Made by a program: the position numbers and the translations under genes. A stretch of DNA of 64,000 nt from Nitrososphaera sp. (GTDB lineage Archaea > Thermoproteota > Nitrososphaeria > Nitrososphaerales > Nitrososphaeraceae): NCBI GenBank assembly GCA_039938515.1, contig JBDUUL010000024.1, forward strand, positions 248,001-312,000, in the 5' to 3' direction. Every line of letters starts with the position of its first letter. Position 1 is the stretch's first letter. This document shows, in pieces, positions 17,180-55,959 of the stretch. The notes under the pieces are model-generated. The model worked only from the letters and a program-made list of their open reading frames with translations, was not told the DNA's origin and did not search any database.

Positions 17180-17671
17180 TCAAACGGATGTCTTGATCAG
17201 GGCAACGAATGGGCTCCAGTCCATCTTGTGGAACTGGATCGGGTCCTTTGCAGGGTACTTTACCCACCCCTTGACGATTGAAAACCGGTAAACCTGCGAC
17301 TTGTCGCCGAGGTTGACCTTGACCTTGAGAAGCGTTCCCCACCTTTTGTCTTCAGTCGAAACATCCATGATCTGCCTGAACGGAATCTCCAGATTCTCGG
17401 GGCTCTTGTCCAGATCCTTTTCAAGCTGCTCGATTTTGTATCCCTCGGCCGGCCTGAAAACCGCTTCGCCTGCCTCAAACCTGTTGTTCTGCCGCGCCGA
17501 GTAGGTGTGGTGCATGCGGCCCGTCATCTCTGTTTTTGTTATTATTGCAAGCCGCCGGTCAGTAATCACAAGCATGCATTCCTTGCCACGCTTGATCAGC
17601 CCCTCCTTTTCCCACCAGATCCAAAATAGGTGGGCCTTTATCTCCTCGTCCCAGCTCACCAAATACTGCAT
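17180..17671 (-). CDS. PH-like domain hypothetical protein
   Basis: The 163-residue protein contains LVITDRRLAIITKTEM, a pattern typical of bacterial/archaeal PH-like (bPH) and GRAM folds, followed by a beta-rich segment. It has no membrane segment. A TATA-like tttttaataat lies about 27 bases before ATG 17671, indicating a leaderless message. Function is unknown; lipid or peptide binding is possible. Confidence 0.6.
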   Translation of the reverse strand: MQYLVSWDEEIKAHLFWIWWEKEGLIKRGKECMLVITDRRLAIITKTEMTGRMHHTYSARQNNRFEAGEAVFRPAEGYKIEQLEKDLDKSPENLEIPFRQIMDVSTEDKRWGTLLKVKVNLGDKSQVYRFSIVKGWVKYPAKDPIQFHKMDWSPFVALIKTSV

Positions 17672-46150: not shown

Positions 46151-46530
46151 TACTTTACTATTTCCTAGTTGGTTGATTGCAGTATATATTTCCGCCCTGT
46201 AAAATGTTCGTGGCGTTGTTACAGTAGATTATTCAGGCGGGGAGGTGGCCTACGCAGCGGGCGAATTCCCGAGTCAAGCCGCCACCCGCCTTGTCGAAAC
46301 TCTCTACCCGTGAGAGCTGCATTTACCTTAGGCTTCATTGGATATAACGCATGCCTGTCCGCAGCCTGTAGAAAATGAACTTGTCAAATTGAACCATCTT
46401 GCTAGCGTCTGGAATCTAACAGATTATAGTTTCAATGATTGATACAAAAAATACATCTATTTTGACTATAGCCGGCGAAATGTATATTGCGAACAAGGAA
46501 TAATATTGTCGTCAGAATCTCTGGTTTACG
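46151..46530. other. Intergenic stretch
   Basis: Nothing coding is recognised. It holds the promoter of the winged-helix gene and AT-rich segments (aatacatctattttgac) before the structured element. Confidence 0.4.
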
Positions 46531-46625
46531 AAAAGGGAGAGGGGAGCCTTCGTGACAAGGCAACCATGCTCAACCGTCCCGCGTGACCAAGTATGGCCGA
46601 GCATGGCTTAATTCCCCTCTCCCAA
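46531..46625 (-). ncRNA. Candidate structured small RNA with 11-bp closing stem
   Basis: GGGAGAGGGGA (46535-46545) and TCCCCTCTCCC (46613-46623) pair over 11 bp and close an 89-nt multibranch fold: CCATGCTC/GAGCATGG (46564-46571 with 46599-46606) and GCCTT/AAGGC (46546-46550 with 46557-46561), plus a small GGCCA/TGGTC hairpin inside. On the minus strand a TATA-like gtttaatct lies about 30 bases upstream and a TTTT run follows the stem, so minus transcription fits. It shares AGGGGAGC and AGGCAACC with the element at 50582. No known RNA family is recognised. Confidence 0.5.
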
Positions 46626-47092
46626 GCTGCGATTGTGATCAAACGGTAGATTAAACATTACTGCCCGATCACTGACTGGCGGCTCACCCCGCAAGAATCT
46701 AACCAGCCCCGCAGGAGAGTTCATCCTCTTCCAAGCATGCAGTCGGTATCAGGGGATCGGGAAGGTTTGCTCTTGCTCGCTTGTTACGTGCGCTCAGAAT
46801 TTTCTGACCACTCCATGCAATGCCAGAGAGATGGGAAACACGAGTGCGAGCTCTGCGCCGAGGTGACGTCACGTCGCAGACTTGAAACATGTGTCATTTG
46901 GTCAGATAGAGAGAATTCGGAGATAAAGCTGATGGCACGGTCCCGAACCCAGCATAAAGACGATGTAATACCGACAAGTCGACGGACTCTTACCCGCGGA
47001 TATAGCCGGTTAAGGGCTGATTGCTGCGGTATTTCCATTTGAGGGACAGGCTGATCGGATTGCTTATCTAACCGTCGCTCATAGATGGAGCG
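46626..47092. other. Intergenic stretch
   Basis: Holds the TATA of the candidate RNA. A 101-codon plus frame (46737-47042) has two CxxC-like parts (HECELCAE and CVIW) but odd composition and no promoter, so it is left out. Confidence 0.35.
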
Positions 47093-55350: not shown

Positions 55351-55959
55351 TAGCCGAATCAATTCTTGAAATCAGTCCTTGTCATTTTCAGCCTGACGGC
55401 TCTCAGCAGCGCCGGCATAAACGGCATCAAGAGACCCCTCCCCGCTATACGCCCCTCGAATGCTTAAAAATCTCCGAATCTGACGTGCAGACAGTGCATG
55501 CCGAATGAGAGAGTCAAGCACGAAAGCTTTCAATGTGCGGTAGTCCGGACATTCCGCTTCTTTCAAATTTCGATCAAGATATTGAGCAACTGGCTGCTCG
55601 CCAGCAGGTGACGCTAGCTATCTGTTAGCAGAGGAGCGTCAAGGGCCGCAAGATTTCTCCGTTTTCATGTAGTGACTTGTGGCGAGTACTTTTTGATACG
55701 CCTACTCCATCCGTCGGAGATGGCAAATCGTGCTTGAAACTGGGAATACAAAATGAGCGAGTGTACAAAAAGAATCGAAACAAGATAACAGCGATGGCAA
55801 TCCCCCAGAGCTCCTTCCAGCTACCGCTGTGGCCTGATTATCCGGTATCCATAGCCATGCCGCTCGAATTTGTCATAAACTCGCTGCAAGCTATTGGCTG
55901 TCACAATGCATATCACAGCATGGTAAATTAAGTGGGATAAAATTCTATATAAGATAGCC
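55351..55959. other. Gene-poor region
   Basis: Two weak frames (55372-55566 minus, 55677-55931 plus) lack promoters and domain motifs. The TATA of the next zinc-ribbon gene (gataaaatt and ttctatata at about 55936-55950) is at the end. Confidence 0.35.

Follow-up and report, generated by a model that had tools for sequence, protein, structure and literature searches.

A candidate lineage-restricted family of small structured RNA genes in a Nitrososphaera genome

An 89-nt element on the minus strand of the 64-kb window (the whole stretch of DNA that was analyzed) at positions 46535–46623 is one of 12 related copies, designated F1, that this genome contains. F1 is likely to represent stand-alone small RNA genes that form a family restricted to this lineage. 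The first-pass annotation had proposed a candidate new structured RNA at this location, a reading that is strengthened by the same-genome copies: these have diverged elsewhere in sequence but retain the fold, the position of the promoter and a segment of 13 nt. At the level of the DNA sequence, the family displays multiple copies, a conserved fold, a strand-specific conserved segment, a fixed promoter position and a T-rich 3′ end. As the promoter is uniform, the end T-rich, and both the fold and the strand conserved, a family of stand-alone small RNA genes is the best reading of these data; the transcription of F1 and its mode of action are inferred. F1 probably is a real new RNA family.

The element in the window and its paralogues

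The sequence from 46623 to 46535 on the minus strand folds into a three-way junction in which a perfect 11-bp stem, P1, encloses two hairpins, P2 and P3. This arrangement agrees with the 11-bp inverted repeat closing an 89-nt segment with two further internal hairpins that was described in the first-pass annotation. The 5′ arm of P1, GGGAGAGGGGA, spans 46613–46623 and is the likely start of the transcript, and the 3′ arm, TCCCCTCTCCC, spans 46535–46545. P2 (46562–46608) possesses 14 outer pairs, including G-U pairs, and the apical extension by which the long form of the element is recognized. P3 (46546–46561) is a 5-bp GCCTT/AAGGC hairpin. The conserved 13-nt segment, GCATGGTTGCCTT (46557–46569), runs from P2, where it lies on the 3′ strand, into the 5′ strand of P3. 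The minimum free energy of the minus strand was −56.1 kcal/mol, dinucleotide shuffles averaged −34.5 ± 3.7 (z −5.89), and none of 200 shuffles was as stable; the plus strand folded less strongly (−46.5, z −4.75). When ORF-free 90-nt segments of the window were scanned, the element ranked first among 742 strand-windows (z −5.4). Exact P1 arms at a spacing of 50–80 nt occurred once in the window and in none of 100 shuffles. The suggestion that all intergenic DNA in the regions scanned is unusually structured was refuted by a mean z of ~−0.1, with z < −3 in ~1% of strand-windows. Separately, several strong-fold windows of G010 resemble rRNA genes by eye.

The element is located in a non-coding gap as noted in the first pass: no ORF of ≥60 aa overlaps it, and a single 43-aa minus-strand frame does so. 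Comparison with Rfam, as proposed earlier, matched nothing known, with zero matches at the gathering score across the 64-kb window and zero matches up to an E-value of 10 in the interval 46400–46750. Likewise, neither the window element nor any F1 copy in the seven loci scanned, a set that does not include the C20 copy, reached the gathering threshold of an Rfam 15 family. The earlier statement that the element is not a tRNA was confirmed with ARAGORN, which together with RF00005 detected neither a tRNA nor a tmRNA in the element, and genome-wide there were 40 tRNA matches, with none of which an F1 copy coincides.

Copies were sought throughout the 2.56 Mb of the source genome, which comprises 24 contigs. 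A DNA search returned ten matches in nine places: the window, C1:55354 (given below as C1:55353), six sites on contig C15, and C20:73844 (below, C20:73843). An RNA model, R1, was built from five short F1 copies with the window copy outside the training set, and identified eleven places of which C15:87840, C15:245705 and C15:324824 were new. The window copy was recovered by this model with 49 bits and an E-value of 3.1e-7 in the genome search, and the untrained copies at C1:55353, C15:87840, C15:245705 and C15:258638 also were recovered, with C15:324824 weakly so. A truncated copy that has lost its 3′ part, C15:252834, was found by the DNA search only. The 12 copies consist of nine on C15 and one each on C1, C20 and C24. 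The extended P2 of the long form occurs in the window, C15:258638, C15:252834 and C1:55353, and the remaining eight copies are of the short form. The 13-nt segment is exact in seven of the 12 copies, an eighth differs from it at one position, and outside F1 just two one-mismatch sites are present in the genome. All nine C15 copies have the same orientation, and the single copies on C1, C20 and C24 are alike relative to their contigs.

Searches beyond this genome with R1, for which the filters were stricter because more than 40 genomes were covered, revealed no F1 copy in 40 relatives (17 of them congeneric) at E ≤0.01 or in a sample of 397 additional genomes of the phylum at E ≤0.001; several of the congeneric genomes are incomplete assemblies. 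A second model, R2, constructed from 11 copies, was applied with looser filters to 30 relatives, and its sole match (G003, E 0.22) was discarded as it exhibited neither a convincing fold nor a TATA box. A scan of viral and GTDB contigs with the exact F1 pattern, and blastn searches of plasmid and phage records, produced zero matches in collections that may omit the source genome. The neighborhood of the C20 copy, which is upstream of sufB, is not conserved in eight congeners. Synteny with the gene-poor region of C15 is absent in three congeners, and 60 kb of each contained no family of dispersed repeats of a similar kind. As far as searched, F1 sequences appear to be limited to one genome.

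Conservation of the fold, the promoter and the 3′ end

As no orthologue was found in the other genomes searched, conservation of F1 was judged on the paralogues alone. The preservation of the stem, which the first-pass annotation had set as a test, was borne out on these paralogues by pair counts and covariation in 11 copies, with no orthologues found in congeners. Standard pairs occupied 91.9% of the pair cells compared to 44–55% in slid controls, and P3 pairs were formed in 92.6% of cells. The covariation score was 0.360 versus 0.224 in shuffled data, a value that was reached in none of 500 shuffles. RNAalifold recovered P1 and P2, but not P3, from the 11-copy alignment, with 10 pairs that have double changes, a count that is inflated since the copies had been aligned to the structure model and the G/A-rich arms of P1 allow register shifts. 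In arm-swap tests, which are free of such shifts, the P1 arms paired better with their own partners in all but 661 of 20,000 permutations (~3%), which is moderate evidence, whereas own and swapped P2 arms did not differ significantly (2856 of 20,000). The truncated copy C15:252834 was excluded from alignment A7 and from both of these tests. Three double changes that are unambiguous in register were discerned by eye: A-U for G-C in P1 of C20:73843, A-U for G-C in P2 of C15:245705, and U-A for C-G in the apical part of P2 of C15:258638. The family shows the structure with compensatory changes that is expected of small RNA genes, subject to the register caveat and to swap tests that are moderate for P1 and not significant for P2. 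When read on the minus strand, P2 contains 16 G-U cells against two A-C cells, although nine of the former derive from one shared U-G pair. This excess argues for an RNA that is produced from the minus strand.

The minus-strand TATA-like box and the T-run that the first-pass annotation placed on either side of the element both are present. The box, TTTAAT (46650–46655, minus strand), starts 32 nt upstream of P1, and the T-run, TTTT (46531–46534, minus strand), directly follows P1 and is a likely terminator. An upstream element, CAGTGATC (46667–46674, minus strand), of which variants occur in part of the F1 copies, was recognized by eye. A TATA-like box starts 29–32 nt upstream of P1 in all 12 copies. 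With a loose set of boxes, which was written post hoc when the sequences already had been seen, 12 of 12 copies scored at this position compared to a mean of 0.48 of 12 at 232 other flank offsets (maximum 3). With a stricter set, eight of the 12 copies scored compared to 0.17 at other offsets (maximum 2). Among tRNA genes of the same genome, for which the 30 of 40 matches that have loci were compared, similar boxes are concentrated between −36 and −31 relative to the mature end, and 20 of the 30 possess a box within −45 to −24. As these distances are similar, F1 has the spacing of a normal promoter from which transcription would begin at P1 or immediately upstream, and the family displays the promoter of its own at archaeal spacing that characterizes small RNA genes. 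A CCCGGA-like motif is common just 3′ of the F1 box, and CCCGG or CCGGA occurs in one of the 30 tRNA upstream regions. The first 12 nt after P1 contain a mean of 4.8 T residues versus 3.2 in the flanks (P ~0.0005 by resampling, 12 copies).

Genomic context and rival explanations

The F1 copies are mostly intergenic with no neighboring gene common to them. Those on C15 are located in gene-poor stretches, with ORF coverage of 20–50% in the 240–260 kb interval, among other dispersed repeats. Homology between closely related copies takes in the promoter, reaching 100–330 nt upstream, and as a rule ends just 3′ of the RNA, and the flanks contain mosaic homologies. In one paralogous pair, C15:87430–88150 and C15:246040–246470, one member is without the stretch that contains F1; the edges are ragged and a duplication is not clear. 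The block by which the two differ also holds a GGGCTAG...CTAGCCC-TTTTT hairpin element. Elsewhere, a plus-strand ORF that is cupin-like by eye (C15:253518–253964) extends at its 3′ end, in antisense, into the F1 copy at 253906–253964, as though the RNA gene had arrived at a position overlapping the end of this ORF.

The main rival to small RNA genes is that F1 is a small repeated DNA or non-autonomous mobile element, akin to MITE, REP or single-stranded DNA hairpin elements, in which the inverted repeat serves transposition and the promoter-like box either belongs to the repeat or directs the synthesis of an RNA related to transposition. We regard this as unlikely. MITE and REP repeats are dispersed and genome-specific with inverted-repeat ends, features that F1 shares in its perfect terminal inverted repeat and its 12 dispersed copies in one genome. 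The single orientation of the nine C15 copies, which is not required of an ordinary gene family, the mosaic homologies of the flanks, the company of other dispersed repeats, and the paralogous pair of which one member is without the F1-bearing stretch also fit this explanation. However, unlike MITE and REP repeats, F1 has its own promoter at a distance that is constant in 12 of 12 copies, a boundary of homology that is asymmetric and includes the promoter instead of two symmetric ends, and a branched fold that is kept by compensatory changes in strongly diverged copies. Moreover, neither a match in the phage, plasmid, viral or other genome sequences searched nor a clear target-site duplication was found. 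A match to a known transposon end, which the first-pass annotation had named as grounds for rejecting an RNA, likewise was not found.

A second structured repeat, F2, also bears on the mobile element explanation, in favor of which it counts, as exactly 82 nt are common at 98–99% identity between sites with differing flanks. F2 (~82 nt, AAGGCGGG...CCCGCCTTTT) has nine copies distributed on both strands, folds strongly, and has the ends GGCGGGTAACGG...GTGCCCGCCTTTT with a closing stem and a T-run. The copies are located on C15 at 92209–92290, 94612–94692, 243535–243605, 247953–248034 and 258944–259026, on the plus strand of C15 at 122917–122998 and 272149–272230, and on C1 at 55657–55738 and 403381–403455. 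Unlike F1 on C15, the F2 copies on this contig occur in both orientations, as do tRNA genes on several contigs. Nothing comparable to F2 was detected in 30 relatives in which one match extended for 26 nt. A diverged F2-like copy tentatively may be present in the window at 46230–46310 (minus strand), where a GGCGGG/CCCGCC stem is preceded by GAGAGTTTCGACA, but a coding stretch at 17250 outscores it in the same alignment test. A further repeat, F3, consists of two hairpins after a TATA-like start at C15:87016–87128, 91459–91574 and 270196–270310; the fold is strong in two of the three copies (z −4.3 to −4.8) and one copy has a T-run. F4 is a weaker hairpin directly 5′ of some F1 copies. F1 and at least two other structured repeats conceivably might be modular small RNA genes that multiply and recombine as cassettes in gene-poor regions, SINE-like or retroposed, and selfish or co-opted, but the probability of this scenario is judged to be low.

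It is very unlikely that F1 is a DNA-level hairpin, a site to which a protein binds, or a neutral repeat that lacks any function. Folding on both strands is compatible with this possibility, but the G-U pairs of P2 favor the minus strand, promoter spacing is fixed, the three-way junction is accompanied by compensatory changes, and ordinary intergenic DNA of the same region is not similarly structured. Similarly little credence is given to a cis-acting leader or 3′-UTR element, riboswitch-like or involved in processing, of adjacent genes: an 89-aa minus-strand ORF, wHTH-like by eye, begins ~385 nt downstream of the window copy, but no gene family recurs beside the 12 copies, the next same-strand ORF often is distant, and the T-rich end directly follows the stem. 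An integron attC site, considered because of the uniform orientation, was rejected as its core-site motif was not seen. Similarly, coding by a short frame from a conserved ATG was dismissed since the length of the P3 loop varies, as judged by eye, by non-multiples of three and the frame consequently is not kept.

Proposed mode of action and relation to known RNAs

As small RNA genes, the F1 copies would be expressed autonomously. For the window element, a TATA promoter of its own would direct the synthesis of a minus-strand RNA that begins at the closing stem or slightly upstream and ends in the T-rich stretch 3′ of the stem. The predicted product is ~60–90 nt in length and forms a three-way junction in which the 5′ and 3′ ends are paired. 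The complement of the 13-nt segment with ≤1 mismatch occurs at two genome sites outside F1, which approximates chance (estimate ~3). Regulation by long antisense complementarity was rejected, as no target candidate exceeded chance, and this mode is disfavored for F1; shorter or imperfect pairing conceivably may occur. Conservation on one strand of the P2 and P3 helices and the absence of a long antisense target favor protein binding. F1 probably acts in trans in this manner as judged from its sequence, with the P2/P3 junction and the conserved GCAUGGUUGCCUU strand presented to a protein. The putative partner may be a regulator or chaperone that is titrated or recruited by the RNA. The copies probably spread as gene-poor intergenic DNA recombined and underwent segmental duplication.

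Archaeal H/ACA guide RNAs and 5S rRNA possess a closing stem and internal hairpins of a size similar to F1, and H/ACA guide RNAs carry an ACA-type box directly 3′ of the stem. Unlike both, F1 has many copies with none found in congeners and no match in Rfam. An H/ACA identity was rejected as the F1 3′ flanks are ACTTT, TTTTC, AGTAT and others with no ACA after the stem.

Multiple structured paralogues in one genome have a parallel in the Yfr103 RNAs of marine Synechococcus, which comprise seven paralogues in one genome with strong conserved secondary structure, have a length of 290–328 nt, are conserved across many related strains, and were shown to be abundant transcripts (PMC5069720). The resemblance implies no sequence link and, unlike Yfr103 as described there, F1 has a predicted product of ~60–90 nt, was found in a single genome, and is known here from its sequence. 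According to a 2012 review, promoter elements were discerned for only 38–44% of archaeal small RNA genes in two species, and no thaumarchaeote yet had been analyzed for small RNAs (PMC3432209). F1 is similar to the genes that are reviewed there in being small, and some of those genes also have basal promoter elements at the right distance, but differs in that a box accompanies every copy and in constituting a family of ~12. No comparable RNA family in these archaea was found in the open-access literature searched. Hardly any exploration of regulatory RNAs has taken place in this archaeal phylum. If the proposed reading of F1 is true, RNA genes can evolve and multiply rapidly in such archaea, and F1 would be a directly testable target.
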